Positions 31,441-62,313 of a stretch of DNA of 64,000 nt are shown here, one piece after another. The notes beneath the pieces were generated by a model that was given only the letters and a program-made list of their open reading frames with translations, had not been told where the DNA came from and searched no databases. Origin of the DNA: an uncultured Chitinophagaceae bacterium (GTDB lineage: Bacteria > Bacteroidota > Bacteroidia > Chitinophagales > Chitinophagaceae); NCBI GenBank assembly GCA_903884185.1, contig CAISDV010000132.1, forward strand, positions 1-64,000, in the 5' to 3' direction. The position numbers and the translations under genes are program-made. The first letter of the stretch is position 1; every line of letters begins with the position of its first letter.

Positions 31441-32976
31441 TTATTTCAATTCCAATACCACTACAGAGAATGGTGGTAATGTTACCTGCAATTGATCACC
31501 TGAAAATTTTGCACCAGTAAATGGTTGCGGTTTTACTTTAGTAGGCTCTTCAAATGTATTGTGGTCTGTTATTTTAGAAGAACTCAGTATCCGCCCGGTA
31601 ATACCCTTTGCAGCAACACCTTGCAGCGTTAATGAAATATCCTGTGATTTAGCTGCATCAATATTCACCAATGAAATATGGATCGTGCCATTTTTATCTT
31701 TAGATGCTGAAGCTGATACTGCGGTCAGTTTGGTTGTATCCATCACATAGTTATTGCTTTTAACGGTGAGTGGTAACATCGTTGCATCCTGGTGCACATT
31801 GTACATTTCCATTACATGGTATGTAGGAGTGAGTATCATTTTTTCTTTGTTGGTTAGTATCACCGCCTGTAAAACATTCACTGTCTGCGCCAGGTTGGCC
31901 ATCCTCACCCTCTCACAATGGTTATTGAAAATATTGAGCGTAACCCCTGCTATCATTGCATCTCGCATGGTGTTTTGCTGGTATAAAGTTCCTTTGCCGG
32001 GCTCTGAATCATACCATCCACCCCATTCATCCACCACTAATGCGATCCTTTTCTGCGGATCATATTTATCCATAATGGCAATATGTTTTTCCACCAGTTC
32101 ATTCATTGCCAATGCGCGTTTCATGATCGTGAAATATTCCTTTTCAGAAAAATTATCGGCAGAGCCTTTTTTATTCCAGTCGATCACTGAATAATAATGC
32201 AACGCGATACCATCAAACAGATCTCGTGGTATATCACGCATCAGCACTTCCGTCCAGTGATAATCACCGGAATTTGCGCCAGATGCCACACGGAAAAGCC
32301 TTGGCCCGCCATTTACATCTTTCATGAAAGATGCATATTGTTTGTAGATATTGGCATAATATTCAGGTTGCATATTCCCACCACAACCCCATGCTTCATT
32401 TCCTATTCCCCAAAATTTTACTTTCCATGGTTCTTTGCGGCCATTCTCTGCCCTTAGCTGTGACAGAGAAGAAATTCCCTCTTTTTGATTAACATAACTC
32501 GCCCAATCTGCCAGTTCCTGCACAGTGCCACTTCCTACATTGCCTGCCAGGTAAGGCTCTGCGCCAATCAGTTCACACATATTTAAAAAGTCATGTGTGC
32601 CAAATGAATTGTTTTCAGGAACACCGCCCCACCAGATATTTGTTGTACCCGGTCGTTTGTCTTTGGGGCCAATACCATCTTTCCAATGGTATGAATCTGC
32701 AAAGCAGCCACCTGGCCAGCGCAGTTGGGGAACTTTTAATTTTTTAAGTGCATCAATGATGTCTAAACGCACACCGTCTTTATTAGGTATGGTGGTATTT
32801 TTTTCTCCCACATAAAAACCGTCATAAATACAACGGCCTAAATGTTCAGCAAAATGACCATAAATATTACGGCTGATAATGTCTTTTCCGTGATCGGCAT
32901 TGATGGTGATCGTGTTTTGCGCAGTTAATTGCAAACACAAAAACAGGGTACTAAGAAATACAAGTGTTTTTCTCAT
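31441..32976 (-). CDS. GH51 alpha-L-arabinofuranosidase
   Basis: A 511-residue exported enzyme (signal peptide to LTAQ, residue 20) that removes arabinofuranosyl side chains from arabinoxylan or arabinan. Catalytic residues are Glu194 in GIGNEAWGCGG (acid/base) and Glu317 in VDEWGGWYD (nucleophile). Other family words are IYGHFAEHLGRCIYDG and LRWPGGCFADSYHWKDGIGP. The C-terminal beta-domain ends with the FSVVVLELK strand. It lies between GH115 and GH10 in the minus-arm operon. Length fits the family. Confidence 0.94.
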   Translation of the reverse strand: MRKTLVFLSTLFLCLQLTAQNTITINADHGKDIISRNIYGHFAEHLGRCIYDGFYVGEKNTTIPNKDGVRLDIIDALKKLKVPQLRWPGGCFADSYHWKDGIGPKDKRPGTTNIWWGGVPENNSFGTHDFLNMCELIGAEPYLAGNVGSGTVQELADWASYVNQKEGISSLSQLRAENGRKEPWKVKFWGIGNEAWGCGGNMQPEYYANIYKQYASFMKDVNGGPRLFRVASGANSGDYHWTEVLMRDIPRDLFDGIALHYYSVIDWNKKGSADNFSEKEYFTIMKRALAMNELVEKHIAIMDKYDPQKRIALVVDEWGGWYDSEPGKGTLYQQNTMRDAMIAGVTLNIFNNHCERVRMANLAQTVNVLQAVILTNKEKMILTPTYHVMEMYNVHQDATMLPLTVKSNNYVMDTTKLTAVSASASKDKNGTIHISLVNIDAAKSQDISLTLQGVAAKGITGRILSSSKITDHNTFEEPTKVKPQPFTGAKFSGDQLQVTLPPFSVVVLELK

Positions 32977-33039: not shown

Positions 33040-35877
33040 CTAAGGTTTTTTATAAGCTATCGTTTCAGGCGGACCCAAATAACTTTGTTTTACTCCACCC
33101 ATATCCAATACGATCTTTTGCAGCACCACACCCGGATCTGCCATCCAGAATTTGAGTACATGCGCACCCGGTTTTTTTACCTGGTGTTCTGATACCATGA
33201 TCCGGATATTATCGCCCACCGATTGTTCCCAGGTACGGTTGGTCTTTTCTATATCAAGATGAATGATCTGTGGCGTTTCATTGTCAATGGATATTCCGTA
33301 ACTCAAACCCTCTTTTGTTTTAAAATCAAGTGTCGGAGAGAAATAAGCATCCACTTTTATTTTACCTGTGTCGGTGATAAATACATCATACTCCAACCGC
33401 GGACTGTTGCCACCCGGAACAACAGGTGTGGCAGTTACAGGTAGCACTGTCATGGCAGATAATGTTCTTCCAAGCCCGGGAATGCGTTCCCAACTGATGG
33501 GTGATGCTGCAACTGCACGTGAGTAATGTTCTGCTTCAATTGAAATATATCCATTGCTTTCTGCAAATCCTTTTTCCTGCCCGGTTGCACGGGTTATCAC
33601 AGCAGTTACTACTAATGATTTTCCATCGGGCCCGGCAATTGTTATGGGCACACGTTGCGTGCCTGCAGGAGCTTTCTGCCAATCAACACTAATCCATAAT
33701 TTTTGTTCTTTTTGCAATTTGGTGGGAGTCGTGATATGTACCCACGCTGCACCACTTGTTGCTTTGTAATCAAAAGATGCCTGCCCCCGATTGAATACTT
33801 CTATATAATGTTTGGGTTGCGATACAGTAAAACCAGGTAGCACCGCTTCAGTGGTTTCTTTTGGCCACCAGGCAGTAGATCCTTCTATCGCTACACCCAT
33901 ATCTGCCGCATCAGGCACAACTATATTTTTTAATGCAGGCATGGCATTCCTTCTCGGTTCCTGCCAGATAACATAACCAATATGCGTTTGATCCATCATG
34001 TGGCTCCACTTGCCACCAGATAGCGTTGTGTTATAATATTTTGAAATGAGAGAATCCTTGATGAATAAGGCTTTCACGCTGTCTGCAAAATCATTGGTGG
34101 CCGCTCTTCCTTGTGCTGCATACCAACTATTTTTTGCTGCGTTCAAATATAATTGATTCAAATTCGCACATGCCTGAACAGGATGAAGCACCAGTTGGTA
34201 GTAAGCATCCTTGTATTCAGCAGGCATTAGTTTGTTCAATGCCTCAGCTTGCTGTAACAATTTATTATAATCGTTCACTACTGTTTCAGCTTCATTATAA
34301 TTAACAAGGCTGTAAGTAGCAGGCGTTAATAATTCAGGTTTGCGACGAGCATTATAGCTGGTGTATTTTGAAACGATATCTGCGATGGCTGTTGCATGGC
34401 TATCTCCAAATTGTTCAGCCGCCCAATGTTTTGTATACTGGCCTAAATTATTTGCATTCCACTTTTTTGTATCCCATGCATAGTCAAGAAAAAAGTCAAT
34501 AGGATATTCCATCGGTTTCAAATCGCCCACATTCACCACCCAGATACGGTCAACCCCATATTCATAAGCAAGATGCATCTGTTCCCATACGCGGGGAATA
34601 GAATTTGTGTTCAGCCATTTATAATTTCTTGGTCCGCCCACATAATCAAAATGATAATAAATACCATAACCACCTGGCCTGTTCTTTTCAGATGATTTGG
34701 GAAGTTTGCGGATATCACCCCAGTTATCATCGCATAGTAATAAAGTCACATCATCGGGTACGCGCATTCCCTTGTCGTAATAGTCCTGCACTTCTTTATA
34801 CAATGCCCATACCTGCGGAGTGGCAGAAGCCGGTTTGCATGTAACATCAGCGATGATCTTGCGCTGGTCGGCAACGATCCTCTCAAGTAATTCCACATTG
34901 CTTCCCTGAGTCATTGGTTTATCTCCATCGCCCCGCATGCCAACGGTAACAATACTTTCATGATTGCCCATGTTCTCGATTCCTTTTCTCCAGAAATTCC
35001 GTAAGATGGTATCATTGGTGGCATAATTCCATTCTCCTTTGCCATATCTTTTCCATTCCTGCTGTGCACGCAGCATGGGCTCATGATGTGAAGTGCTCAT
35101 CACAATTCCATATTGATTTGCCAACACAGGATTCAACTTGTCATCATCATTAAACGCATTGCCCCACATCGCAGGCCAGAGAAAATTGCCCTTCATACGC
35201 AATATCAGTTCAAACATTTTTTCATATACATTATGATTCACGCCACCGAACTTTTCTTTTGTCCAACCCGAAAATGCAGGCGCTTCATCATTAATAAAAA
35301 TGCCCCTGTATTTTACTGAGGGAGGACCGTATAAATGAGCGCCTTTTTTTAAAAACACTTCCGGTTTTTTCTTTACCGGAACATCGGCCCACCAATACCA
35401 GGGCGATACACCCATTTGCTGCGATAATTCAAACACACCATAAGCGGCGCCTCTTTTATCGCTACCTACAATAACAAAAGCATTGTCCACTCCTTTACAG
35501 GGATGATCCACCATTTGCAGTTTAAAAGTTTCCCATTTTCCTTTTAATTGACTCACATCAATTTTTTTCTGCTCAACGAGGCTGCGTATGAGAGGTGACC
35601 CATCTAATGTTCCAATGATGATGAGATTTTTTGCAGAGGAAGGAAGTGCATGCAATGTATCGGGCTTGCTGCCAGTTACCTGTAATACATCAGCCTGCAA
35701 AAACGCCGCAGCTTTCTTTACCAGCCAGTCGTCATTATCGTCAACATAAAGAGAAGTGGCGTGTGCGTTTGCAACAACAGGAAAACCACCCGGCTCCATT
35801 TTAGTTGATATAATTTCCTGTGCCTGGATGGCGAGTACCGGGAAAAGGGTAACTGCCAATACGATCAGCTTTTTCAT
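33040..35877 (-). CDS. GH115 alpha-glucuronidase
   Basis: A large exported enzyme of 945 residues with signal peptide MKKLIVLAVTLFPVLAIQAQ. It has the GH115 domain order: N-terminal alpha/beta domain, central barrel with FLWPAMWGNAFNDDD, GIVMSTSHHEPM, NHESIVTVGMRGDGDKPM and DNWGDIRKLP, helical region, then C-terminal beta domains (from about 700) with YISIEAEHYSRA. GH115 enzymes remove (4-O-methyl)glucuronic acid from internal residues of xylan, unlike GH67. It lies between the SDR and GH51 genes of the minus arm. Confidence 0.93.
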   Translation of the reverse strand: MKKLIVLAVTLFPVLAIQAQEIISTKMEPGGFPVVANAHATSLYVDDNDDWLVKKAAAFLQADVLQVTGSKPDTLHALPSSAKNLIIIGTLDGSPLIRSLVEQKKIDVSQLKGKWETFKLQMVDHPCKGVDNAFVIVGSDKRGAAYGVFELSQQMGVSPWYWWADVPVKKKPEVFLKKGAHLYGPPSVKYRGIFINDEAPAFSGWTKEKFGGVNHNVYEKMFELILRMKGNFLWPAMWGNAFNDDDKLNPVLANQYGIVMSTSHHEPMLRAQQEWKRYGKGEWNYATNDTILRNFWRKGIENMGNHESIVTVGMRGDGDKPMTQGSNVELLERIVADQRKIIADVTCKPASATPQVWALYKEVQDYYDKGMRVPDDVTLLLCDDNWGDIRKLPKSSEKNRPGGYGIYYHFDYVGGPRNYKWLNTNSIPRVWEQMHLAYEYGVDRIWVVNVGDLKPMEYPIDFFLDYAWDTKKWNANNLGQYTKHWAAEQFGDSHATAIADIVSKYTSYNARRKPELLTPATYSLVNYNEAETVVNDYNKLLQQAEALNKLMPAEYKDAYYQLVLHPVQACANLNQLYLNAAKNSWYAAQGRAATNDFADSVKALFIKDSLISKYYNTTLSGGKWSHMMDQTHIGYVIWQEPRRNAMPALKNIVVPDAADMGVAIEGSTAWWPKETTEAVLPGFTVSQPKHYIEVFNRGQASFDYKATSGAAWVHITTPTKLQKEQKLWISVDWQKAPAGTQRVPITIAGPDGKSLVVTAVITRATGQEKGFAESNGYISIEAEHYSRAVAASPISWERIPGLGRTLSAMTVLPVTATPVVPGGNSPRLEYDVFITDTGKIKVDAYFSPTLDFKTKEGLSYGISIDNETPQIIHLDIEKTNRTWEQSVGDNIRIMVSEHQVKKPGAHVLKFWMADPGVVLQKIVLDMGGVKQSYLGPPETIAYKKP

Positions 35878-35946: not shown

Positions 35947-36690
35947 TTAAAACCCAACAGAGTTGCCCCCGTCTACAGGAAGAACAACTCCTGTAATATA
36001 TTTTGCTGCAGAAGAAGCAAGGAATAGTGCAGCATCACCAATATCTGATGGTTCTCCCATTTTTCCCATCGGTGTTCTTGCAAACACTTTATTTTTCCTT
36101 TCTGCATCACTGTTCAATGCCTTTGCCGACATATCTGTAGCGATAAATCCTGGTGCAATACAATTCACGCGGATCCCTTTGGGGGAAAGCTCTACAGCCA
36201 TTGCTCTTGTCATGCCTTCGATGGCAGATTTGGATGCAGTGTATGCGATCACTTTTGGAATTCCATATTGCGAAGCCATGGAACTAATATTGATGATGCA
36301 ACCTTCGCCATGCAACAACATATGTTTTACCACTTCTCTTGAAAGCGAGAATGCCGCATTCACATTGGTGTTGATGATCCGCTGGAATTCTTCATCTGTT
36401 ACTTCTTCAAAATTCTTTTTTTGGTTGATGCCTGCATTGTTCACCAGGATAGATATCTGTCCGTGTTGGCTTATAATCTTTTCTACCAGTGCAGGAATGG
36501 AAGTAAGATCAGTCAGGTCTGATGAAATGGCAATGCAATTTTCGCCAAACTGTTCTTTGGCCGCGGCTAATTTATTTTCATCCCTTCCAATAATGATAGT
36601 GCGAATATCATTCTCAATAAATTTCTTTGTAATAGCGAGGCCGATGCCCGAACCACCACCCGTTACTATTGCTAATTTTTTATTGCTCAT
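35947..36690 (-). CDS. SDR oxidoreductase in the glucuronoxylan arm, candidate fructuronate reductase
   Basis: A 247-residue classical short-chain dehydrogenase without signal peptide, hence cytosolic. The cofactor loop is TGGGSGIG (10-17) and NNAG is near 86-89. ISSMASQYGIPKVIAYTASK provides Ser, Tyr and Lys of the active site. GMTRAMAVELSPKGIRVNCIAPG and the final LPVDGG are typical of the gluconate-5-dehydrogenase/KduD-like group. It sits between the GH115 and GH67 alpha-glucuronidase genes. The window has uxaC and uxuA but no fructuronate reductase of the mannitol-dehydrogenase type apart from uxaB, so this SDR is the best candidate for that step. KduD activity or action on 4-O-methylglucuronate are alternatives. 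Confidence 0.7.
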   Translation of the reverse strand: MSNKKLAIVTGGGSGIGLAITKKFIENDIRTIIIGRDENKLAAAKEQFGENCIAISSDLTDLTSIPALVEKIISQHGQISILVNNAGINQKKNFEEVTDEEFQRIINTNVNAAFSLSREVVKHMLLHGEGCIINISSMASQYGIPKVIAYTASKSAIEGMTRAMAVELSPKGIRVNCIAPGFIATDMSAKALNSDAERKNKVFARTPMGKMGEPSDIGDAALFLASSAAKYITGVVLPVDGGNSVGF

Positions 36691-36740: not shown

Positions 36741-38885
36741 TCATGGTGCTTTCAGGGCACGGTACTGTTCATAAAACTGCAGCGTATACTTTGGCTTTTC
36801 ATAAGCAGCCGGGATGGGCATCTTCGAAAATGTCTGAAAATACAGCAGGCAGGCATCTCTCCACCACACCGCTTCTTTTTCCTGCGTAGCCAATAATCCC
36901 TGCACTTTTTGAAACCTGTCTTTGTCAATAAATTTTTCCAGGCTGTTCCAGGTTTTTTGCATGTCTCTTACACTGTCAACGCCCTCATTATATTTATAAC
37001 ACATTTCATCCCATAATGTCCGGCCCGATTTCATTACATGTTTCCAGCTTACATGATGAAACCATAATAAATATTTTTCGGGGCAAGTGGCAGGGTCTTC
37101 AAATTGTTTGCGCACTTCGGGAGTATACTGTGCAAGCCCATTGCTTCCTGTAGGTTTTCTGTCGAAGCCTATACCAATAGAATCTGCTTTATGAAAATAG
37201 ACAGGGTTCCAATCGGCCCTTGATGCTTTATCATACCAGGGTGCAGGCCCGTAATGATTGCCATAACCCATGATATGATGCAATCCCAATGGTGTCATAT
37301 AGTTCACTATGGCTTCGCGCGAGCCCATCATTATTTTTTTTGTTGCTGATATGAATTGCGGATCGTTGGTAAATGTTTGCCTGATCCATTCATCTGCGAT
37401 CTGTTCTGCACTTAGGTTGTGGTTCCATGCCAGTCTCCCCAGTGCATACCAGTTTGCTTGTCCGAATGGATGGCCGCACCAGTTGGTATCGCTGCCTATG
37501 TTGGCAACACCAGCCATTCCTGTGTTGGAATAATTATCCAGTGAACCGTCAACTACTTTTGCAACGGTAGAACCTTTTCCTTTTGCATAAGTATCGGCAT
37601 CCAGGCATTCTTTAAATAAGGTAGCGAGATAGGCGAGGTGTGTAGAGAAACCCAAATATTCCTGTGTTACCTGGTATTCCATCACCAGCGGAGTTTTAGG
37701 CATTGCACCAAATAATGGATGGAAAGGTTCTCTTGGTTGAAAATCAATAGGCCCGTTCTTTACCTGTATCACCACATTTTTTCTAAAATTTCCATCCAAT
37801 GGTTTGAATTCATCATAAGCCTGTTTAAAACGGTCTTCCGGTTTATCATTACTGTAAACAAAGGCGCGCCAGATAACCATTCCATTAAATGGTGCCAGCG
37901 CATCGGCCAAAAGATTAGCGCCTTCTGCATGTGAGCGATTATATGTTTGCGGGCCGGGCTGTCCTTCTGAATTTGCTTTTACAAGAAACCCTCCAAAGTC
38001 GGGGATAGATTGATAGATCTCTTTTACTTTTTCCTTCCACCAGTTTTGTACCTGTGGATCAAGCGGATCTGCAGTTTTTAATCCGCCCATTTCTACCGGC
38101 GCGCTGAATCTTGCAGTGAGAAATAATTTTATTCCATAAGGGCGGAATATATCAGCCAGCACTTTGGCTTTTAAAATATAATCTTTTGATAGCGATAAAA
38201 CATTTGAATTCACATTGGTCACAGATGCTGCATTAATACCAATCGATGCATTCGCTCTTGCATAATCTGTATAACGCTGAGAGATCGTGTCGGGTAATTT
38301 TTTCCATTCCCAGATGGATCTTCCTGCATAACCACGTTCCACACTTCCATTTAAATTATCCCAGTGATCCAGCATTCGCAGCTTGATCTTTGGAGTGGAA
38401 CTGATATTTAATTGATGAATACTTTGTTGTGTTTGTAGTAATCGTAAAAAATGAAATACGCCATACAGTACGCCCATATCAGTATTTGCAGTGATGATCG
38501 TATAATGCTTGCCTGCTATGGTTTTGGAGAGAATCAAAAAACCTTCATTGCCCAATTGTGCCAGTTGTTTTTTATCAACTGCTGATGCAATAAAAGAAGA
38601 TGTTGCACTTGTGCCAGCAATTAAAGTGGCATCATTTTGCGTAGAAGAAGAGTTGCTGATTGTTTCCGATAAAAGCCCTTGCAATCCTTTCAGTAATTCA
38701 TCTGTGGCAACTTTAATGGTAGGGGAGTTGCCGGCAACAACAATATGCTGTAAATTATTTTTGTAATCACTTAATAATCTTGCATCACTCACTTTTTCAT
38801 ATCGCAGCCATAAACGATAACCATCTTCTGCAAAGGAAATTTGCAAACACATGGCCAGTATAAAAAATAGTATCGTTTTTTTCAT
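36741..38885 (-). CDS. GH67 alpha-glucuronidase
   Basis: A 714-residue exported enzyme (signal MKKTILFFILAMCLQISFA) that removes (4-O-methyl)glucuronic acid from the non-reducing end of xylo-oligosaccharides. Family words are EDGYRLWLRYEKV at the N-terminus, LRMLDHWDNLNGSVERGYAG, GGFLVKANSEGQPGPQTYNR with a catalytic region, MEYQVTQEYLGF and LGLHHIMGYGNHYGPAPWYD. The full family length is present. It follows the LacI gene by 18 bases and precedes the SDR by 50, in the minus arm. Confidence 0.94.
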   Translation of the reverse strand: MKKTILFFILAMCLQISFAEDGYRLWLRYEKVSDARLLSDYKNNLQHIVVAGNSPTIKVATDELLKGLQGLLSETISNSSSTQNDATLIAGTSATSSFIASAVDKKQLAQLGNEGFLILSKTIAGKHYTIITANTDMGVLYGVFHFLRLLQTQQSIHQLNISSTPKIKLRMLDHWDNLNGSVERGYAGRSIWEWKKLPDTISQRYTDYARANASIGINAASVTNVNSNVLSLSKDYILKAKVLADIFRPYGIKLFLTARFSAPVEMGGLKTADPLDPQVQNWWKEKVKEIYQSIPDFGGFLVKANSEGQPGPQTYNRSHAEGANLLADALAPFNGMVIWRAFVYSNDKPEDRFKQAYDEFKPLDGNFRKNVVIQVKNGPIDFQPREPFHPLFGAMPKTPLVMEYQVTQEYLGFSTHLAYLATLFKECLDADTYAKGKGSTVAKVVDGSLDNYSNTGMAGVANIGSDTNWCGHPFGQANWYALGRLAWNHNLSAEQIADEWIRQTFTNDPQFISATKKIMMGSREAIVNYMTPLGLHHIMGYGNHYGPAPWYDKASRADWNPVYFHKADSIGIGFDRKPTGSNGLAQYTPEVRKQFEDPATCPEKYLLWFHHVSWKHVMKSGRTLWDEMCYKYNEGVDSVRDMQKTWNSLEKFIDKDRFQKVQGLLATQEKEAVWWRDACLLYFQTFSKMPIPAAYEKPKYTLQFYEQYRALKAP

Positions 38886-39932: not shown

Positions 39933-39938
39933 GGCATT

Positions 39939-39952
39939 ACAATCGGTTGCGT
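39939..39952. promoter_or_regulatory. Predicted LacI operator, xylan site 2
   Basis: ACAATCGGTTGCGT shares the core CAATCGGTTGC with the palindrome at 41059-41072. It lies in the 53-base gap between the two lacI-type genes, only 7 bases upstream of the second one's start codon, where a bound repressor could block transcription through the minus arm. Confidence 0.6.
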
Positions 39953-39985
39953 AAAAATCTTAAATAAAAAGGTAACAGCAAATTT

Positions 39986-41030: not shown

Positions 41031-41098
41031 CAAAAATACCTTTTTTTTTAAAAAAAATTGCAATCGGTTGCATTTTTTCAAAATTCCCCCTATATTTG
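41031..41098. promoter_or_regulatory. Divergent promoter pair sharing one LacI operator
   Basis: The palindrome tGCAATCGGTTGCa (41059-41072) is CG-centred and nearly symmetric. On the plus strand its TTG (41068-41070) is followed after 20 bases by TATATTTG (41091-41098), an exact Bacteroidota -7 box. On the minus strand its other TTG (complement of 41061-41063) is followed after 22 bases by TATTTTTG (complement of 41031-41038). Each operator arm therefore supplies the -33 element of one promoter. It would drive the plus arm from GH3 (41170) and the minus arm from the LacI gene (40999), both closed by one bound repressor. Confidence 0.75.
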
Positions 41099-41169: not shown

Positions 41170-43353
41170 ATGAAAAGAGCAGCTTGTCTTTTATTCTTCT
41201 CAGCAACCATCTGCGTGGCCGTAGCCTCCCGTGCACAGCAGGCATCCTTATATCTTTCTACCTCTGCCCCAATTGAAAATAGAGTTAATGACCTTATCTC
41301 AAAACTGACATTAGAAGAGAAGGTTGGACAAATGATGTATAACAGTCCGGCCATCACTCGCCTCAACATCCCTGAATACAACTGGTGGAACGAAGCATTG
41401 CATGGAGTTGCGCGTTCAGGCGTTGCTACTGTATTCCCTCAAGCTATCGGTCTTGGTGCCACTTTCGATGATGCACTCGCTTTAAAAGTGGCTACTGCTA
41501 TTTCTGATGAAGCAAGGGCTATGTATAATGCAGCTGTTGCAAAAAATTATCGCTTAAGATATGAAGGGCTGACTTTCTGGACGCCTAATATCAACATCTT
41601 CCGTGACCCTCGCTGGGGGCGCGGACAGGAAACATATGGTGAAGATCCTTTTCTTACTTCAAAGATGGGAGTGGCTATTGTAAAAGGTTTGCAGGGCAAT
41701 GATCCTAAATATTTAAAAGTAGCGGCATGTGCCAAACACTATGCCGTGCATAGCGGGCCTGAAAGATTGCGCCATGAATTTAATGCAGTGGCCTCGCCAA
41801 AAGACCTGCGCGAAACTTACCTGCCTGCATTTAAAGCATTGGTTGATGCAAAAGTGGAAGCTGTGATGTGTGCATATAATAGCACCAATGGCGAACCCTG
41901 CTGTGGAAATACTTTTTTATTACAAGATGTTTTAAGAGATGAATGGAAATTCAAAGGCCATGTGGTTTCTGATTGCTGGGCTCTCAGAGATTTTTACGAG
42001 GGGCATAAAGTAGTAGCCAATACTGCACAGGCTGCAGCCCTTGCGGTAAAACGTGGCGTGAACCTGAATTGCGGAGATGAATTCCCTGCATTGAATGATG
42101 CAGTAAAACAAAAACTCATCACAGAAAAAGAAATTGATAATTCACTCGCTATATTATTAAGAACAAAATTCAAGCTGGGGCTTTTTGATCCGCCTTCCAT
42201 GAATCCTTATAGCAAACTTGGCACAGATGTGATCAATAGCCAGCAGCACCGCGACCTGGCAAAAGAAGTGGCATTGAAATCCGTTGTGCTTTTAAAGAAC
42301 AACGGAGCGCTTCCATTAAAGAACGACCTGAAAAAATATTTTGTTACAGGCCCTAATGCAGCCAACATAGATGTATTGATAGGAAATTATTATGGAGTGA
42401 ATGATAAGATGTCAACCATTCTCGAAGGGCTGGCATCACATATCAAACCTGGTAGCCAGATGCAATACAGGCCAGGCGCTTTGCTTGACAGGGATAATAT
42501 CAACCCAATAGACTGGACAACAGATGAAGCAAAAAATTCCGATGCAGTTGTAGTGGTGTTAGGATTATCTGGTGTATTGGAAGGTGAAGAAGGCGAATCT
42601 ATTGCTTCTCCGTCTTTTGGCGACAGGCTTGATTATAATCTCCCTAAAAATCAAATTGACTTTTTAAGAAAGATGCGCCAGGGAAATAATAAACCGATCA
42701 TTGCTGTGATCACTGGTGGCAGTCCAATGAATTTATCCGAGATACATGATCTCGCAGATGCTGTATTACTTGTTTGGTATCCGGGTGAAGAAGGTGGCAG
42801 CGCAGTAGCGGATATTGTCTTTGGTAAAGTTTCCCCCTCCGGAAAATTGCCGATCACATTCCCCAAATCATTATCACAGTTGCCCGATTATCAAAATTAC
42901 TCTATGGCAGGCCGTACTTACAGGTACATGACCGCAGAACCGATGTATCCATTTGGATTTGGTTTGAGTTATGCAAAATTCAGTTATTCAGGATTGGCCC
43001 TGTCTAAAAAAACAATCTCTAAAGATCAATCCACACAGGCAGAAGTGGTATTGAAGAATTCAGGAAAATACGAAGCAGAAGAAGTAGCGCAATTATATGT
43101 AACGCATATGGATGCTGCTAACTCACCATTATATTCTTTGAAAGGATTCAAACGAGTAAAAGTGCAGCCGGGCGCTTCAGTGAAAGTGGTATTCAATATT
43201 ACACCTGATATGCTGACAGTAGTAAATGATAAAGGAGAGATCAAAGCCGAAGCAGGAAAAGTGAAAATAAGTATAGGGGGTTCATTGCCTGGAAAAAGAA
43301 GTGAAGACCTGGGTGCGGCAAAAGCAGAAGAAACAATATTGACGATTCAATAA
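41170..43353 (+). CDS. GH3 beta-xylosidase-type glycosidase (first copy)
   Basis: A 727-residue exported GH3 enzyme; the signal peptide ends near VASRAQQ. The TIM-barrel has TLEEKVGQMMYNSPAI, the YNWWNEALHGVARSG motif, a RWGRGQETYGEDPFLTS-type loop and the nucleophile D268 in HVVSDCWALRDF. The second domain (about 370-570) and a C-terminal fibronectin-III-like domain (EVVLKNSGKYEAEEVAQLYV) are present. The YNWWNE/GVAR context is typical of xylan 1,4-beta-xylosidases, so release of xylose from xylo-oligosaccharides is likely; arabinosidase activity is possible. It is the first gene of the plus arm. Confidence 0.9.
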   Translation: MKRAACLLFFSATICVAVASRAQQASLYLSTSAPIENRVNDLISKLTLEEKVGQMMYNSPAITRLNIPEYNWWNEALHGVARSGVATVFPQAIGLGATFDDALALKVATAISDEARAMYNAAVAKNYRLRYEGLTFWTPNINIFRDPRWGRGQETYGEDPFLTSKMGVAIVKGLQGNDPKYLKVAACAKHYAVHSGPERLRHEFNAVASPKDLRETYLPAFKALVDAKVEAVMCAYNSTNGEPCCGNTFLLQDVLRDEWKFKGHVVSDCWALRDFYEGHKVVANTAQAAALAVKRGVNLNCGDEFPALNDAVKQKLITEKEIDNSLAILLRTKFKLGLFDPPSMNPYSKLGTDVINSQQHRDLAKEVALKSVVLLKNNGALPLKNDLKKYFVTGPNAANIDVLIGNYYGVNDKMSTILEGLASHIKPGSQMQYRPGALLDRDNINPIDWTTDEAKNSDAVVVVLGLSGVLEGEEGESIASPSFGDRLDYNLPKNQIDFLRKMRQGNNKPIIAVITGGSPMNLSEIHDLADAVLLVWYPGEEGGSAVADIVFGKVSPSGKLPITFPKSLSQLPDYQNYSMAGRTYRYMTAEPMYPFGFGLSYAKFSYSGLALSKKTISKDQSTQAEVVLKNSGKYEAEEVAQLYVTHMDAANSPLYSLKGFKRVKVQPGASVKVVFNITPDMLTVVNDKGEIKAEAGKVKISIGGSLPGKRSEDLGAAKAEETILTIQ

Positions 43354-43524: not shown

Positions 43525-46500
43525 ATGAAACGTTTGGTTACGAAACAACTTAAAAATTCATTATCACGGATAATGAATTACTCAGCTAAGGCAACAGCAC
43601 TGGCCTTACTGATGATTTTCCAGGTTCTGATATTCCAGAGCCCGGTGTATTCACAGGCAACACAAACAAAGACGGTAAAAGGGAAAGTAACCGATGAAAA
43701 AGGCGCAGCTGTTCAGGGTGCATCCGTTACTATACGGGGCACGAACAGGGGTATCAACACCGGCGCCGACGGTACCTATTCCCTTAACGTTACCAACAAC
43801 GCAGTACTGGTTGTTTCTATCGTAGGATATGAAACAAAAGAAGTTCGTGTTGGAGCAAGCAATACTTATAATGTTCAGTTGAACAGTGTAAGTAAAGACC
43901 TCGACCAGGTAGTAGTAGTGGGTTATGGTACACAGAGAAAGAAAGATGTTACCGGCTCTGTTGTTTCAGTGAGCGGACAAACACTCTCTGAAGTTCCAAC
44001 AGCCAATATTGTTAGTGAATTAAAAGGCCGCGCTGCAGGTGTGGACATTGTGAGCAACAGTGCAACACCAGGTGGTGGTGGTTCTGTGCGTATCAGGGGT
44101 AACCGTTCTATTACAAATAACTCAGGTTCAAGTGATGGACTGGATCAACCCTTGTATGTAGTGGATGGTATTCCTTTCGGAGGAAGTATCAATGATCTTA
44201 ATCCTGATGATGTATTGAGCCTTGATATATTAAAAGACGCTTCTGCAACTGCGATCTATGGTTCCAGGGGTTCAGGTGGTGTGATCCTTATTACAACGAG
44301 GAGAGGTACCAAAGGAAAAGCTGTGATGAGTTTAAATTCTTATTATGGTATTTCGCAAGTGATGTCTGAATTGCCTGTTTATAGTGGAGCCGGGTATGCA
44401 CAATTAAAAATTGATGCAGCAACTTATAACAGGTCAACACCAGGAACTACTGCTTATGGCCCTACTAACGCGGAATTAGCAGGTATTGCTGCCGGAACAA
44501 ACACAGACTGGCAAGGTTTAATCTACCAGAATGGTTATACTACCAGCAACACTTTGAGCCTTTCAGGTGGTAACGAAACCACCCAGTACGGGTTAAGCGG
44601 TGCTTACTACGCTGAGACAAATGAAATCCCTAACCAAAGGTTTGAACGTTATTCTTTACGTACTACGATCGATCACCAGGTAAATACTCATTTAAAGATT
44701 GGCTTCAACAGTTTCAATACGTTGACCTTTAGTAATAACCCAGGAGGCGGCGGTGTTCCCGGTACACTGTTAAGGGAAAGCCCATTGACAGCACCTTATA
44801 ATCCTGATGGAAGTGTTAACCTGTTACCATTGGTTGGTTCAACAGATGCTGCTTTTGTAAGCCCGCTTACTTTGAAAACAGCTTCCCAGGCTATTTTGGC
44901 AAAGACCCGCAGGATCAGGACACTGAATAGCCTTTACGCCGAATGGTCTATTCCATGGGTGAAAGGTTTGAAATACAGGATCAATGTGGGATTGGATTAT
45001 ACACAGAGCCAGGGTGATAGCTATAGCGGACCAAATACTTATGTGAACAATGCTACATCCCAGTCACAATCAAGTGCAACAGTAAGTAATAGTGAAGCAT
45101 CACGTTATACGCTTGAAAACTTGCTGACATACGATAAAACGATCAAGAAGCACAGGATAGGATTCACTGGTTTGTTCAGTGTTCAAAAAGACCACAACCA
45201 GAACAGCAGTACTACAGCGCTGGGTGTTCCTGCCGATTATATACAGGATGCAAATCTTGCATTAGCAGGTGGTTCTGTTACATCGAACGGTGGGTTTAGT
45301 GAACAAGGATTGATCTCCTATATGGCGCGTTTGAATTATGCATACGATAATAAATACCTGTTGACCGCTACTATAAGAACAGATGGTTCTTCGGTTCTTT
45401 CTCCAGGATATCAATTCTACTCATATCCTGCCGTTTCATTGGGCTGGGTAATATCCAATGAAAAATTCATGCGTGGAGTAAGTTTTGTTTCCAACTTGAA
45501 ACTAAGAGGTGGTTGGGGTAAAACATCCAACCAGGGTGTTTCTCCTTATACTACATTGGGAGCACTTTCTGCTACAGCGTATGATTTTGGACAACAGGCA
45601 GCCGGCCAGCAATCAGGATATCTTGTAACTACTTTGCCGAACACAAGTTTGCATTGGGAGTCAACAGCACAGACAAATATTGGCCTTGATTTCGGTTTAT
45701 TCAAGAACCGTATCACAGGTAGCTTTGAATGGTACCAACAAAACACAAGCGACATTCTGTTACCAGTAAATCTTCCCCCAAGTAATGGAGCAGGCAGCAC
45801 TACCCAAAACCTTGGTAAAACACAGGGAACAGGTATCGAGCTTAGCCTGAGCACAGTGAATATTCAGAACAAGAATTTTACATGGAGTACAGATTTCAAT
45901 TTCTTCCTGAACAGGGAAAAAATTACACAGCTCACAACACCTACAGAAGTAAGCAATATCGGTAACGGATGGTTTGTTGGCCAACCACTGACAGTTATTT
46001 ATGACCTCAAAAAAGTGGGTATCTGGCAGACAGCAGATTCTGTAAAAGGAACGATCGCTGCACAAACATCGCCTTCACAGTTCCCTGGCCAGATCAGGAT
46101 TCAGGATCTGAATGGTGATGGCAAGATCGATGCAAATGACCGCCAGATCATCGGTAACTTCCAGCCACAATGGGAAGGTGGATTTACTAGCCGTATGACC
46201 TACAAGAATTTTGATTTTTCATTTGTGATCTTTGCAAGAATGGGAATGAAGATGCTGGTTCCTTATATTACTTCTGATGGTTCGGCAAGCGGTTATGACT
46301 TTTTCAACCAGAGCCGTAATAACCAGATAAGAACTAATTATTGGACAAGGAATAATCCTTCCAATGATTTCCCTGCACCTGATGCCAGTTTGCAGAATGT
46401 ACCTTTTGGTTCTACATTACAGTATATGGACGGATCATTTATCAAAATGAGAAGTATAAACTTAGGCTATACATTCTCTTCTAAGGTGTTGGCCAAAGCA

Positions 46501-46728
46501 GGTATCAGTTCTTTAAGGATATATGTGACCGCAGAAAACCCATGGGTGATCTATTCACCATTTGTTTCAAACGGTTTTGGTCCTGATCCTGAAGGTAATG
46601 GTTATGGTGGTGCAGTAAACAGTACTGGTAGTGGTAACGTTACTGGCTCACTTAACCGCCAGATCAGCGTAAGTGCCAATAACCCATCAATGCGGATGTA
46701 TAATGTAGGCCTAAACTTAAAATTCTAA
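43525..46728 (+). CDS. susC: SusC-type TonB-dependent outer-membrane transporter for xylo-oligosaccharides
   Basis: A 1067-residue outer-membrane transporter. After a long signal region (ending PVYSQ near residue 47) comes a carboxypeptidase-like domain (VKGKVTDEKGAAVQGASVTI, about 53-130), the TonB-box-like VVVVGYGTQRKKDVTG, then the plug domain with LYVVDGIPFGG and DASATAIYGSRGSGGVILITT words (SusC/RagA signature) and a beta-barrel to the C-terminal Phe (MYNVGLNLKF). It pairs with SusD 19 bases downstream. Substrate is inferred to be glucuronoxylan oligosaccharides from the neighbours. Confidence 0.94.
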   Translation: MKRLVTKQLKNSLSRIMNYSAKATALALLMIFQVLIFQSPVYSQATQTKTVKGKVTDEKGAAVQGASVTIRGTNRGINTGADGTYSLNVTNNAVLVVSIVGYETKEVRVGASNTYNVQLNSVSKDLDQVVVVGYGTQRKKDVTGSVVSVSGQTLSEVPTANIVSELKGRAAGVDIVSNSATPGGGGSVRIRGNRSITNNSGSSDGLDQPLYVVDGIPFGGSINDLNPDDVLSLDILKDASATAIYGSRGSGGVILITTRRGTKGKAVMSLNSYYGISQVMSELPVYSGAGYAQLKIDAATYNRSTPGTTAYGPTNAELAGIAAGTNTDWQGLIYQNGYTTSNTLSLSGGNETTQYGLSGAYYAETNEIPNQRFERYSLRTTIDHQVNTHLKIGFNSFNTLTFSNNPGGGGVPGTLLRESPLTAPYNPDGSVNLLPLVGSTDAAFVSPLTLKTASQAILAKTRRIRTLNSLYAEWSIPWVKGLKYRINVGLDYTQSQGDSYSGPNTYVNNATSQSQSSATVSNSEASRYTLENLLTYDKTIKKHRIGFTGLFSVQKDHNQNSSTTALGVPADYIQDANLALAGGSVTSNGGFSEQGLISYMARLNYAYDNKYLLTATIRTDGSSVLSPGYQFYSYPAVSLGWVISNEKFMRGVSFVSNLKLRGGWGKTSNQGVSPYTTLGALSATAYDFGQQAAGQQSGYLVTTLPNTSLHWESTAQTNIGLDFGLFKNRITGSFEWYQQNTSDILLPVNLPPSNGAGSTTQNLGKTQGTGIELSLSTVNIQNKNFTWSTDFNFFLNREKITQLTTPTEVSNIGNGWFVGQPLTVIYDLKKVGIWQTADSVKGTIAAQTSPSQFPGQIRIQDLNGDGKIDANDRQIIGNFQPQWEGGFTSRMTYKNFDFSFVIFARMGMKMLVPYITSDGSASGYDFFNQSRNNQIRTNYWTRNNPSNDFPAPDASLQNVPFGSTLQYMDGSFIKMRSINLGYTFSSKVLAKAGISSLRIYVTAENPWVIYSPFVSNGFGPDPEGNGYGGAVNSTGSGNVTGSLNRQISVSANNPSMRMYNVGLNLKF

Positions 46729-46747: not shown

Positions 46748-48565
46748 ATGAAACGTTATTTAAACATAATAAGCTGCGCAGGGATATTAGCCCTGACACT
46801 TATTTCTTCCGGCTGTAATAAAGTGTTGGAAGAACATCCTCAGTCACAAATCGTTCCAGCATTCTTTAATACTCCTGCAGGTGTGCTCGGAGGAATAGCC
46901 GGTGTATATAATGAAATCCGCAACCTTTGGGGTACCGAAGGCTGGTCCATGCAGTTGACTGCCGGTACTGATGAGGTATTGGAAGGAGCAAGTGCCACCA
47001 GTACGGATTTCTTTACATATAACCCTTTGAGCTCTAATGATGAAAGTGGTGGTATCTGGACAACTGCTTACACTGACATTAATACACTGAATGGGGTATT
47101 GCAATTCGGTGCAGCTCTTACCGGGCTGGATGCAGCTACCAAGGCGCAATACCTGGCACAGGCAAAATTCCTGAGAGCATTTTACTATTTTTATTTGGTA
47201 CAGAACTGGGGTGATGTGCCTTTGCATCTTACTTATATTACAGCTCCTTCTACGGCCGACTCTCGCCAGCCAATGGCTGATGTGTATACTCAGATCATCA
47301 AGGACCTCACAGATGCCTCTACACAATTACCGGCAATTTCTCCGGTCATAGCCACAGCCGCTAATCCTTTTGGCGGTAAAGCTGCAGCCCAGGGGGCAGC
47401 ATTGTATCTTTTAGGTAAAGTGTATCTTACACGTGGATATACTGCTGCCGGATCTGCTGCCGATTTTACGCAGGCTGCTACGATCCTTTCAAACCTGATC
47501 ACCAATAAAGCTACTTATGGATTTAACCTTTATCCCGATTTTGCTCAGGCATTTTGGAAAGCAAATGACTATGGTACAGAAGTGATATTTAACAGCGATC
47601 ACAGCAGCGATACCAAATATGGTGAGTATATAGCCGGTTCATCGGGCAACAATGGTAATAACCTGCTGCCATGGTTCAACAGGCCTAACTATCCAACTTT
47701 CGCAATCAATGCAAGTATCAATGGTTCAGGTGCATTGGCACTCAGCGGTTCTACTATGATGACAAGGGATGTGAACAATGGACGACCTTATATCCGTATG
47801 AGGCCTAATAATGCCTTACTGTCTAATCCAACACTTTCATCAGTTACCGGTTATGTTGTTGGACAGGCTTTTGCAGACATCGTGAATGATTCACGTTATG
47901 ATAAGACTTTCCAGACAGTTTGGATCGCTAATACTGCCAATGTTACAGGTACACGTGGTACCTTAACAGTAGGCGTGGATACAGCTATATGGATACCTCC
48001 TTATGAAGTAGCAGGAGCACCAACAGCAAGAAATGGAGCACCATTTAAAGGTATTATCATTCCGCCTAGCCTGCAGTCAAACAGTTTTTTTCCAGCAGTA
48101 AGGAAATTTGATGACTCTACTAGGACAGGAGTAAATGACCCTTCAACAAGAACAGTACAGATATTCAGGTTCTCGGATGCTTACCTGCTTTGTGCAGAAG
48201 CTTATTTTAAAGCAGGTGACAATGTTAATGCTGCCAAATACCTGAATGTAGTAAGGGAAAGAGCAGCATTTAGAACTACCAATACGGCTGCGCAAAATGC
48301 TGCCGCAGCACTTGCAATGGACATTCTGCCTTCACAGGTTACAATAGATTTTATTCTGGACGAACGTACCCGTGAATTGTACGGAGAAGGCTCACGCTGG
48401 TGGGATTTGCAAAGAACAGGCCAGTTGGTAGCAAGAGTAAAAAAATGGAACCCGGTTGAGGCAGGTGGCCATATCCAGTCATTCCATGCATTAAGGCCAA
48501 TACCACAAAATGAAATTGACCTTGTTACATCGGGTCCTAAATTCCCTCAGAACCCAGGATATTAA
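46748..48565 (+). CDS. susD: SusD/RagB-family surface glycan-binding lipoprotein
   Basis: A 605-residue lipoprotein with lipobox ISSGC (Cys23), anchored on the outer-membrane surface. The SusD fold is shown by the N-terminal helices (FFNTPAGVLGGIAGVYNEIRN), LAQAKFLRAFYYFYLVQNWGDVPLHL, and the C-terminal RFSDAYLLCAEAYFKAG, FILDERTRELYGEGSRWWDL and ALRPIPQNEIDL. It forms the lid of the SusC transporter and captures xylan fragments. A hairpin terminator follows at 48603. Confidence 0.95.
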   Translation: MKRYLNIISCAGILALTLISSGCNKVLEEHPQSQIVPAFFNTPAGVLGGIAGVYNEIRNLWGTEGWSMQLTAGTDEVLEGASATSTDFFTYNPLSSNDESGGIWTTAYTDINTLNGVLQFGAALTGLDAATKAQYLAQAKFLRAFYYFYLVQNWGDVPLHLTYITAPSTADSRQPMADVYTQIIKDLTDASTQLPAISPVIATAANPFGGKAAAQGAALYLLGKVYLTRGYTAAGSAADFTQAATILSNLITNKATYGFNLYPDFAQAFWKANDYGTEVIFNSDHSSDTKYGEYIAGSSGNNGNNLLPWFNRPNYPTFAINASINGSGALALSGSTMMTRDVNNGRPYIRMRPNNALLSNPTLSSVTGYVVGQAFADIVNDSRYDKTFQTVWIANTANVTGTRGTLTVGVDTAIWIPPYEVAGAPTARNGAPFKGIIIPPSLQSNSFFPAVRKFDDSTRTGVNDPSTRTVQIFRFSDAYLLCAEAYFKAGDNVNAAKYLNVVRERAAFRTTNTAAQNAAAALAMDILPSQVTIDFILDERTRELYGEGSRWWDLQRTGQLVARVKKWNPVEAGGHIQSFHALRPIPQNEIDLVTSGPKFPQNPGY

Positions 48566-48732: not shown

Positions 48733-50142
48733 ATGAAGAACGCTATGAAAAAGTTATCATATCTTTTTTTAGTAGCAGTGATTGCCTGCACTAATTCTCA
48801 TGCGCAATTTGGAAGGCCAGGTGGTGCAGACAGTGCGCAAAGAAGAAAAACACAGGATAGCATTCGCCAGTTGACAGAACAGGATCATCAGAATATGATG
48901 GACCAGTTGCATATTACTTCTATCAGGCAGGGTGCAAATGGTAATGATCCCAAGGCACCCAATGCTGCGAATTATGATGAATCAAAAGCCAACCCTTTTC
49001 CAAATCTGCCTGACCCATTGGTATTAAAAAATGGCAAACCAGTTACCACCGCTAAAATTTGGTGGGACAAACGCCGCCCTGAAATTGTTGAAGATTTTGA
49101 TCGTGAAATATATGGAAGGATGCCTAAACATATTCCTAAAGTAACATGGGAAGTAACGAGTACCACCAATGAAAAAAACGGTGACGTTGATGTCATCACA
49201 AAAAAATTAATAGGGCATGTTGATAATTCTTCATACCCGGGTATTACAGTTGATATTCAATTAAGTGTATCAACTCCTGCAAATGCAACAGGACCTGTGC
49301 CTGTGATTATGCAGTTTGGTTTTATATTTCCCGGTGGCGCACGTCCGCCCGCACCGCCGCCAGTTGCAGGCGCTCCCACACGGCCCGCAGGACCTACTAC
49401 ACCAAGCTGGCAGCAACAGGTTCTTGCAAAAGGTTGGGGTTATGCGATTATTGTTCCCGGAAGTATCCAGGCAGATAATGGCGCTGGGCTTACACAAGGA
49501 ATCATCGGACTTGTGAATAAAGGACAACCACGCAAACCGGATGATTGGGGTTCACTTCGTGCATGGGCATGGGGTGCCGATCGTGCAATAGATTATTTTG
49601 AAACAGACAAAGCAGTGAATGCAAAAGAAATAGCGATCGAAGGCCATTCACGTTATGGCAAAGCTGCCATTGTTGCGCTTGCTTATAATCCACGTATGGC
49701 AACTGCTTATGTAAGTTCTTCGGGAGAAGGTGGTGCTAAACTTCATCGCCGCAATGCCGGAGAGATTGTAGAAAATGTTGCAGGCTCCAATGAATATCAT
49801 TGGATGGCAGGCAACTTTATTAAATATGCAGGTCCATTGAACTGGGGCGATATGCCGGTAGATTCTCATGAACTCATCGCTATGTGCGCACCACGCCCTG
49901 TGTTTATTAGCGGTGGTGAAAAAGGAGACGGATGGGTTGATGCAAGAGGAATGTTCATGGCAGCGGTTGCCGCAGGCCCGGTATATAAATTGCTGGGTAA
50001 AAAAGAAATGGCCATCACACAATTTCCACCTGTCGAAACTTTGGCAGATGGCGATGTGGCTTTCAGGCAACATAGCAGCGGGCATACGGATGTTCCTAAC
50101 TGGCCAACATTCTTGACGTTCGCAGGAAGATATTTTAAATAA
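48733..50142 (+). CDS. CE15 glucuronoyl esterase-like protein
   Basis: A 469-residue exported alpha/beta hydrolase; the signal peptide ends near NSHAQ. The CE15 nucleophile motif is G-H-S306-R-Y-G-K-A, and His451 lies in QHSSGHTDVP. WNWGDMP-type (LNWGDMPVDSHELIAMCAPRPVF, given as separate words LNWGDMP and IAMCAPRPVF) segments are also typical. Glucuronoyl esterases cut the ester between 4-O-methylglucuronic acid of xylan and lignin alcohols, which fits the two alpha-glucuronidases nearby. A Pro-rich loop (about 203-225) interrupts the core. A start at the second Met (residue 5) is equally possible. Confidence 0.85.
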   Translation: MKNAMKKLSYLFLVAVIACTNSHAQFGRPGGADSAQRRKTQDSIRQLTEQDHQNMMDQLHITSIRQGANGNDPKAPNAANYDESKANPFPNLPDPLVLKNGKPVTTAKIWWDKRRPEIVEDFDREIYGRMPKHIPKVTWEVTSTTNEKNGDVDVITKKLIGHVDNSSYPGITVDIQLSVSTPANATGPVPVIMQFGFIFPGGARPPAPPPVAGAPTRPAGPTTPSWQQQVLAKGWGYAIIVPGSIQADNGAGLTQGIIGLVNKGQPRKPDDWGSLRAWAWGADRAIDYFETDKAVNAKEIAIEGHSRYGKAAIVALAYNPRMATAYVSSSGEGGAKLHRRNAGEIVENVAGSNEYHWMAGNFIKYAGPLNWGDMPVDSHELIAMCAPRPVFISGGEKGDGWVDARGMFMAAVAAGPVYKLLGKKEMAITQFPPVETLADGDVAFRQHSSGHTDVPNWPTFLTFAGRYFK

Positions 50143-50151
50143 CGTACTAGT

Positions 50152-50181
50152 TACCGGTTGCTAGTTGCTGGTTGCCGGTTA
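50152..50181. repeat. 'ggttgctagttgctggttgc' repeat left of the GH10-CBM gene
   Basis: The word taccggttgctagttgctgg, then ttgccggtta, is the inverted partner of 51864-51890: over 23 bases the reverse complement matches with three mismatches. It lies 22 bases before the GH10-CBM start. Confidence 0.6.
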
Positions 50182-50202
50182 GTATTCGTAACTAACTTAT
50201 AA

Positions 50203-51858
50203 ATGAAACTGATTTCTTTTTGTTCTGTAGTATGTGTTATCACACTTGTATTCGGATCATGTTCCAAAACCAATGACAGCGGCACCACTACTGGTGGTGG
50301 TACTGGTGGAGGATCGGGCGGTGGAACAACTGTTGATACCACAGGCCCATTGAAAGCTTCAGCACTTACATTTCCTTTTGGCTTTGCAGTAGATTATACA
50401 TTGATGAACAATGATGCCACCTATGCAGGCATCGTAAAAGCACAGGCAAGCAGTGTTACATTTGGTTATGAAATGAAACACGGTGCGCTTGTAAAAAATG
50501 ATGGCAGCGAAGATTTTACAAGGGCCGATGAACTTTTTAATCTCTGCACTACTGGCGGATTAGTAGTATACGGCCATACACTCGCCTGGCACCAGAATCA
50601 AAATGCGAGTTATTTAAATTCATTAACTGTTGGTGGTGGCGCAGGTTCACCCAATCTTTTATCTGCCGGTGATTTTGAAGCAGGCACCGGTACCACTGGT
50701 ACAGGAAGTACATTATTTACAGGATGGAATAACCTGGTAGGCGGAACAGGCGCAGCAACATTTTCTGCCGTTGCAGGAAATGGCAGTACCCGCGCTATGC
50801 AGGTAACTGTTACAACAGCTGGCGCCAATGCGTATGATATACAATCCATCGGACCATCATGGACAGCAACTGTTGGAGATAGTTATAAAGTTTCAGTAGA
50901 CATTAAATCTTCCGTGTCCGGGGGTAAAGTAAGGCTGGTAGCACAAAATAGTTTATACCAGCAAAGCGATATCACACCTACCACATCATGGGCAACCTAT
51001 ACATGGACATTGACCGCCGGTGAAAGTTCTCCCATATTCAGGCTAAATTTTCCTAATACCGGAACATATACAATTGATAATGTAACCATTGTTGATCTAA
51101 CTACATCGCCGGCACCAACACCTGCACAAGTGGCTGTTGCGGTTGATACTGCACTCAGCAGGTTTGTAAGAACAACAGTTACTCACTATGCGGGAAAAAT
51201 AAAAGCATGGGATGTGGTAAATGAATCTATGGCAGACGGGGCCAGCGGATTACGCACAGCCGCGAATACAAGCGTTGCAGCGGGTGCTACTGATGTTTTT
51301 TTCTGGTCGCAATACCTGGGAAGAAATTATGCATTAAAAGCATTCCAGTATGCAAAAGCCGCAGATGCCGCAGCATTACTTTTTATCAATGATTATAATC
51401 TCGAATCCAATAGTGTAAAGCTGGATTCATTAGTTGCTTTTGTAAATGAACTCAAGGGAAAAGGTGCACAGATAGATGGGATAGGAACACAAATGCATAT
51501 CAGTATTAATACATCTTACTCGGCAATCGATAATATGTTTAAAATATTGTCAGGAACCGGATTGAAGGTGAGGGTATCAGAACTGGATGTGCGTGCGAAC
51601 CCGAGCAATGACCCAAGTTTCAGTGCAACAACTAATATACTAAATACGCAGGCCGCCATGTATAAATATGTAGTGAGTTCATATATGGCAAACGTGCCCG
51701 TTGCACAGAGATATGGAATTACAATTTGGGGAGTATCAGATGCAGACAGCTGGATCGTAACAACACAGAAACAGGTAGATGCCCCACTGTTGTATACTGG
51801 CAGTTATAGTAAGAAAACTGCTTATACATCGTTTTTGCAGGGATTGAGGGGGCAGTAA
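50203..51858 (+). CDS. GH10 xylanase lipoprotein with a CBM-like domain inserted in the catalytic domain
   Basis: A 551-residue lipoprotein (lipobox VFGSC, Cys20) followed by a Gly/Thr-rich linker (27-44). The GH10 barrel starts near 50 and holds GYEMKHGALV and HTLAWHQNQ. At about 146-300 it is interrupted by a beta-sandwich of the CBM4/CBM22 kind (NLLSAGDFEAG, WNNLVGG, TIDNVTIVDL). The barrel resumes with acid/base Glu341 (WDVVNESMADG) and nucleophile Glu460 (VSELDVRAN). The insertion in the beta3-alpha3 region is the arrangement known from Bacteroidota surface xylanases, usually with two CBMs; here there is one. It probably makes the first cuts in xylan at the cell surface for SusCD. Confidence 0.92.
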   Translation: MKLISFCSVVCVITLVFGSCSKTNDSGTTTGGGTGGGSGGGTTVDTTGPLKASALTFPFGFAVDYTLMNNDATYAGIVKAQASSVTFGYEMKHGALVKNDGSEDFTRADELFNLCTTGGLVVYGHTLAWHQNQNASYLNSLTVGGGAGSPNLLSAGDFEAGTGTTGTGSTLFTGWNNLVGGTGAATFSAVAGNGSTRAMQVTVTTAGANAYDIQSIGPSWTATVGDSYKVSVDIKSSVSGGKVRLVAQNSLYQQSDITPTTSWATYTWTLTAGESSPIFRLNFPNTGTYTIDNVTIVDLTTSPAPTPAQVAVAVDTALSRFVRTTVTHYAGKIKAWDVVNESMADGASGLRTAANTSVAAGATDVFFWSQYLGRNYALKAFQYAKAADAAALLFINDYNLESNSVKLDSLVAFVNELKGKGAQIDGIGTQMHISINTSYSAIDNMFKILSGTGLKVRVSELDVRANPSNDPSFSATTNILNTQAAMYKYVVSSYMANVPVAQRYGITIWGVSDADSWIVTTQKQVDAPLLYTGSYSKKTAYTSFLQGLRGQ

Positions 51859-51863
51859 AATAG

Positions 51864-51890
51864 AAACCAGTAACCAGCAACCAGCAACCA
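51864..51890. repeat. 'accagtaaccagcaaccagc' repeat right of the GH10-CBM gene
   Basis: Inverted partner of 50152-50181, starting a few bases after the GH10-CBM stop and ending just before the GH39 gene. Three internal variants of 'aaccagc' follow one another. Confidence 0.6.
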
Positions 51891-51899
51891 AGATGCTTT

Positions 51900-53471: not shown

Positions 53472-53500
53472 TCAGTTAAACGCAGTTAAACAATAGAGTT

Positions 53501-54829: not shown

Positions 54830-54890
54830 TCCGCTTATCACGGATTGATTTTCGATTTGCATAATTATTCACCAACCAAAACCGACTAAC

Positions 54891-56516: not shown

Positions 56517-56627
56517 ATGGGTTGGCTATTCAGCCCGCTGGTAAAAGGTTATTATTTCCCGGTAAACAGGAATGCTGTGAAATACAATAACCGTTATATT
56601 TAGCATTCAATTTAAAAACCACCAGAT

Positions 56628-58301: not shown

Positions 58302-58358
58302 GACGGGAAGTGTATGTATTGATGTCAATAATTATTATTTATTCAACAAGTAAGTAGT

Positions 58359-59837: not shown

Positions 59838-59854
59838 ATAGTCATGGCTTTGAA

Positions 59855-59890
59855 GATGCATCCCTGATACTCGCACTTTTTAGCTACTGC
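59855..59890. repeat. Partial copy of the 'tactcgcacttt' element
   Basis: gatgcatccctgatactcgc followed by actttttagctactgc matches the opening part of the elements at 3591 and 13168 (tggtactcgcacttt). The CCTAGG palindrome and the closing word are missing here. The rest of the 121-base gap before GH3 shows nothing I can name. Confidence 0.5.
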
Positions 59891-59958
59891 AATACGAAAA
59901 TGTCCCAATAGTCGCAAGAGTCCCTTTTATATTTAATCAAACGAATAAATTTATAGTT

Positions 59959-62286: not shown

Positions 62287-62313
62287 AGCCCTCTCAACAG
62301 GAGGGCTTTTTTT
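62287..62313 (+). terminator. Strong factor-independent terminator closing the xylan operon
   Basis: agccctc (62287-62293), loop tcaacag, gagggct (62301-62307), followed by a run of T. Perfect 7-base GC-rich stem with a T-tract: a textbook intrinsic terminator, about 105 bases after the GH3 stop. Confidence 0.88.

Follow-up and report, generated by a model that had tools for sequence, protein, structure and literature searches.

The 64,000-nucleotide stretch of DNA from an uncultured Chitinophagaceae bacterium that was analysed here (the window) most likely carries an autoregulated divergon of the LacI family, which controls a locus for glucuronoxylan utilisation, and from the sequence we put the probability of this reading at roughly 0.78. 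One operator, op1, located between the operon of the two lacI genes and the GH3-SusC-SusD operon, would block both divergent promoters, and a second operator, op2, lies before lacI2 (Table 1). The minus arm comprises 7 and the plus arm 11 genes, so that the count of about 17 given in the earlier note was close but has to be raised to 18. The 16 intergenic gaps inside both arms contain no further TAnnTT[TC]G box, which makes the single control region for both arms proposed earlier plausible, and one divergent region probably drives all 18 genes. The gaps that precede SusC and follow SusD contain hairpins, and there is therefore room for attenuation. Downstream of the locus, positions 62630-63688 encode an AbiEi-type antitoxin-like regulator domain.

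Table 1. Features of the xylan locus and its predicted control elements, in positions of the window
Feature	Positions	Strand	Basis
GH10 xylanase	30336..31430	-	domain search
Alpha-L-arabinofuranosidase (GH51-type)	31441..32976	-	domain search
GH115 alpha-glucuronidase	33040..35877	-	domain search
SDR oxidoreductase	35947..36690	-	domain search
GH67 alpha-glucuronidase	36741..38885	-	domain search
lacI2, second LacI/GalR-family repressor, 342 aa	38904..39932	-	Pfam; tree
op2 (operator 2), CGCAACCGATTGTA	39938..39951	-	sequence; second full genome match; conserved in tandem-lacI loci
lacI1, LacI/GalR-family repressor, 337 aa	39986..40999	-	Pfam LacI and Peripla_BP_3
TATTTTTG, possible -7 element of the lacI promoter	41031..41038	-	sequence and relatives
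op1 (operator 1), TGCAATCGGTTGCA	41059..41072	+ (sequence)	sequence, genome matches, conservation upstream of lacI1
Left-arm TTG, possible -33 element of the lacI promoter	41061..41063	-	spacing 22 here; relatives at 22-23
Right-arm TTG, putative -33 element of the GH3-SusC promoter	41068..41070	+	TTG-N18-21-TAnnTTnG in relatives
TATATTTG, putative -7 element of the GH3-SusC promoter	41091..41098	+	sequence and relatives
GH3 glycosidase, first plus-arm gene	41170..43353	+	domain search
SusC-like TonB-dependent transporter	43525..46728	+	Pfam carboxypeptidase-regulatory-like domains; SusD neighbour; matches SusC genes there in relatives
SusD-like lipoprotein	46748..48565	+	domain search
Remaining plus arm: glucuronoyl esterase-like, GH10, GH39, xylose-isomerase-like, two SSF symporters, FGGY kinase, GH3	48733..62181	+	
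Terminator-like GC-rich hairpin with T7 tail, past the last plus-arm gene	62288..62313	+	read from sequence

The palindrome GCAATCGGTTGC at 41060-41071 can be extended to TGCAATCGGTTGCA at 41059-41072. Rereading the sequence confirmed the coordinates of the earlier note as well as its two spacings, namely 20 bases from the right-arm TTG to TATATTTG on the plus strand and 22 bases from the left-arm TTG (41063-41061) to TATTTTTG (41038-41031) on the minus strand. By inspection op1 is a near-palindrome in which 12 of the 14 positions are symmetric; the central CG that had been described is present, but the imperfection of the symmetry, a T/G mismatch at the pair flanking this CG, had gone unmentioned. 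Half sites of the PurR type read GCAA-N-CG-N-TTGC, a form that op1 resembles, and in LacI/GalR proteins the leucine of the hinge helix intercalates at the central CG. The characteristics of a LacI operator, an even palindrome with a central CG near the start codon of the regulator, are all found in op1 except at the CG-flanking positions. In the 2.95 Mb genome GCAANCGNTTGC occurs a single time, and YRCAACCGATTGYR has exactly two full matches, op1 and op2, both within the xylan locus. When one mismatch was allowed in a search of the same genome for a wider regulon, ten further places besides op1 and op2 were obtained. For one of the ten, C122:96418, the surroundings were examined, and this site is not a clear member of the regulon.

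An operator-like site could be aligned upstream of lacI1 in 53 loci, typically 55-95 bases from the start; these loci are related and not independent of each other, and 45-47 are left after dropping those with flanks at least 70% alike. A recognisable op1 was not found in about 14 further LacI1-like loci. According to the column counts over the 53 loci, AA-C-CG-ATT is nearly invariant and the outer arms co-vary symmetrically (TGC/GCA, TGT/ACA, TGA/TCA, TAC/GTA), as recognition by a dimer predicts. Because the site is conserved beside lacI1 orthologues, the comparison supports op1 as a genuine conserved operator of the LacI family, predicted from sequence, and the identity assigned to it earlier is borne out. 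Of the 20 loci that were compared over a wide range, most have the lacI pair or a single lacI1 and at least part of the set GH67-SDR-GH115-GH10 on one side, opposite SusC-SusD or GH3-SusC-SusD. In one locus (L057) the divergent arm is a kinase-isomerase-symporter set with the same operator. A phylum-wide scan for operator plus box returned mostly chance matches, and among the 30 loci examined from it a recognisable LacI helix was encoded beside the site in two only, both of the same family.

Both repressors contain PF00356, the N-terminal LacI helix-turn-helix domain, above the cut-off and the periplasmic-binding-protein-like effector domain (PF13377/PF00532), and a FASSLR motif can be read by eye at the expected place of the hinge helix in the two sequences. 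LacI1 and LacI2 form separate orthologous groups in the tree, and LacI1 orthologues within the same family are 57-67% identical. The same operator is also found at the promoters of LacI2-clade singletons (e.g. L087, L097, L102, and L104), and therefore both proteins probably recognise it. The whole genome encodes only four LacI proteins. Another LacI-family gene of the window, at 10044-11147, is divergent from 11474-13111, and its product (L106) has a long branch in the tree, at a great distance from both LacI1 and LacI2. About 40 bases past the stop of the fourth lacI gene there is an operator-like ATGTAAACGATTGCAC (L115:17646-17661, contig C89), located 13 bases before the ATG of the next gene, and thus in an op2-like layout of an operator before the next start.

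The form expected for promoters of the Bacteroidota primary sigma factor, a TAnnTTTG-type -7 box with a TTG about 19-21 bases upstream, is found on the GH3-SusC side. A TAnnTTnG lies 18-21 bases past the right-arm TTG in 34 of the 53 related loci, compared to a mean of 0.5 and a maximum of 3 in shuffles of their flanks. The earlier claim that the right arm of op1 provides the -33 element on the plus strand agrees with this. The -7 box is mostly TATATTCG in the relatives and TATATTTG here. For the gap-free subset with a spacing of 19 bases, which consists of 22 non-redundant loci, the majority base has a mean frequency of 0.94 over the operator, 0.67 over the spacer, 0.87 over the box, and 0.45 over the bases that follow. 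A real promoter on the GH3-SusC side, with the right arm of op1 at the expected -33 position, is well supported as a prediction.

On the lacI side, TATTTTTG matches TAnnTTTG in full, and a TAnnTTnG at 22-23 bases is present in 13 of the 53 relatives compared to 0.24 expected (shuffle mean), with none at 18-21 bases in any of the 53 loci. In another group, to which the closest relatives belong, a TTnnTTTG is found at 26 bases, a spacing that is too far for the left arm to serve as the predicted -33 element. To judge from the distances, a -33 role of the left arm is possible in this genome and in about a quarter of the 53-locus set. Because the spacing on the lacI side scatters in this way, an operator that forms both -33 boxes, as the earlier note had it, is consistent with this genome but no fixed or conserved rule; the proposal stands for the GH3-SusC side and is weaker for the lacI side. 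Alignment of the intergenic region in relatives, which had been suggested as a check, shows that the symmetry of the outer arms is kept and the SusC-side spacing mostly so, but that the lacI-side spacing is variable. TTG is mildly enriched 19-22 bases upstream of other -7 boxes (15 seen and about 7 expected in a sample of 80 boxes, which is small, as was that of 16 boxes in a strict test). A spacing of 22 is therefore permissible although not optimal, as it is at the edge of this weak enrichment. The -33 TTG had been taken as general for Bacteroidota, which is less secure than stated, since the motif is present in Bacteroides thetaiotaomicron but could not be found in Flavobacterium johnsoniae (PMC7366714).

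The earlier note knew of only one palindrome and overlooked op2, which lies in the gap from lacI1 to lacI2, 5 bases ahead of the lacI2 ATG. This placement directly before the lacI2 start is kept in 14 of 15 tandem-lacI loci. Given that lacI1 and lacI2 are presumably co-transcribed, op2 would most simply block read-through or a weak internal start, and its action would most simply separate lacI1 from lacI2 and the enzyme genes. Just upstream of op2, at 39952-39982, a TTTG is followed after about 19 bases by GAnnTTT[AG]; this arrangement is present in many tandem loci and is possibly a degenerate internal promoter of lacI2. The conserved position of op2, past lacI1 but before lacI2 and the enzymes, lends some weight to an alternative that we regard as possible but on the improbable side, in which essentially the GH3-SusC promoter alone is controlled by op1, and the enzymes downstream of lacI1 have their real control point in op2. 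The lacI promoter would then use another -33 position or none, and partial repression would leave it weakly active, with a permanent supply of repressor. The tight spacing on the SusC side as opposed to the scatter on the lacI side points in the same direction, as do two single-lacI loci (L027 and L070) in which the operator lies between lacI and the enzyme genes. However, the minus-strand box is a full match in this genome, its counterparts at 22-23 bases far exceed the shuffled expectation, and a dimer bound to op1 would probably still block a polymerase so near.

The core of the operator is not symmetric. When sites in the op1 zone were chosen by perfect complementarity of the outer arms with the core disregarded, all 38 read [C/A/G]CGAT toward lacI and none was symmetric; in the window the core of op1, AACCGATT on the minus strand, reads in the direction of lacI1. 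The same polarity is found in all 14 op2 sites, and four of the five far sites are mirror-oriented, toward SusC. Extra mirror-oriented operator copies are present on the SusC side of L014, L069, L089, and L105, at about -285 to -350 from lacI. Selection clearly maintains the asymmetry of the core. However, the common orientation of the op1 cores may have been inherited from one ancestral site, and 38 of 38 is therefore not equivalent to 38 independent cases. For this reason we consider it rather unlikely that the core is functionally polar in the sense that AACCGATT must read one way. If it were, this might mean a directional roadblock or a heterodimer of LacI1 and LacI2 instead of a simple symmetric dimer site. 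Such a heterodimer, oriented by the fixed asymmetric core (C-CG-A), would account for the uniform polarity of the op1-zone and op2 sites and for the pairing of two lacI genes in many genomes. It is nevertheless quite improbable because the same asymmetric core is found in single-lacI loci (e.g. L015, L024, L087, and L104), and the possible inheritance of one op1 orientation and the homodimeric nature of the LacI relatives of known structure also speak against it. Finally, TTG and A/T-rich boxes are common and TAnnTTTG boxes show only a modest excess in sense over antisense orientation (32 and 19), but a chance origin of palindrome and boxes in AT-rich sequence between genes is hardly credible given the conservation in 53 loci, the unique genome matches, and spacing counts far above those of the shuffles.

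Under the preferred reading, the autoregulated divergon with two operators, a dimer of LacI1 and/or LacI2 would sit on op1 when inducer is absent, as we infer from the conserved site. The -33 TTG of the strong promoter of GH3-SusC-SusD would come from the right arm of op1, and the left arm would coincide with the -33 position of the weaker promoter of lacI or lie immediately upstream of it. Bound repressor would thus exclude sigma factor and RNA polymerase from both predicted promoters. Repressor at op2 would block transcription from lacI1 into lacI2-GH67-SDR-GH115-GH51-GH10 or, alternatively, a weak internal start. A breakdown product of xylan, to judge from the genes only, might release the repressor, and xylose, a xylo-oligosaccharide, or an aldouronic acid would be candidates.

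Autoregulated divergons of the LacI family are already known, and with dozens of relatives the type of switch described here is well conserved and fairly ordinary. The form of the motif, its position, and the autoregulation match the local sugar regulons of the LacI family (RegPrecise-type divergons) compared in PMC4052901, a study whose Bacteroidota sample is one taxonomic group and whose text does not mention xylan. In contrast to those regulons, the operator of the xylan locus coincides with the -33 element of a promoter of the Bacteroidota type, and two LacI paralogues are encoded by tandem genes, the second of which is closely preceded by an operator. The closest solved structures by sequence are CcpA (3oqm, E 1e-53) and PurR (E about 1e-39), which have the full-length LacI/GalR architecture in common with LacI1 and LacI2. 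However, CcpA and PurR are global catabolite or purine regulators, whereas LacI1 and LacI2 would be local xylan repressors for which neither HPr nor a purine co-repressor is implied. The xylose regulator of Bacteroides thetaiotaomicron belongs to another family, NrtR (PMC3878776). The available parts of PMC12125979 and PMC10766802 report xylan genes with TonB-dependent transporters under the control of LacI-family regulators, describe LacI or hybrid two-component regulators for the xylan systems of Bacteroides/Prevotella and Xanthomonas, and treat XylR/AraR regulators alongside the LacI-type ones; for beta-1,4-xylan loci, LacI-type or hybrid two-component control is given in the part of PMC12125979. 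The tandem-lacI, two-operator layout is not described in the available parts of the literature on LacI-type and xylan regulators.

The general understanding of LacI regulation is unchanged by this divergon. It does offer a testable switch, defined by its sequence, for an entire xylan locus, and this in a phylum whose usually discussed regulators are hybrid two-component systems, and it would be a clean natural case of an operator that doubles as a -33 element. Through the conserved operator, the regulon should be predictable in dozens of genera.
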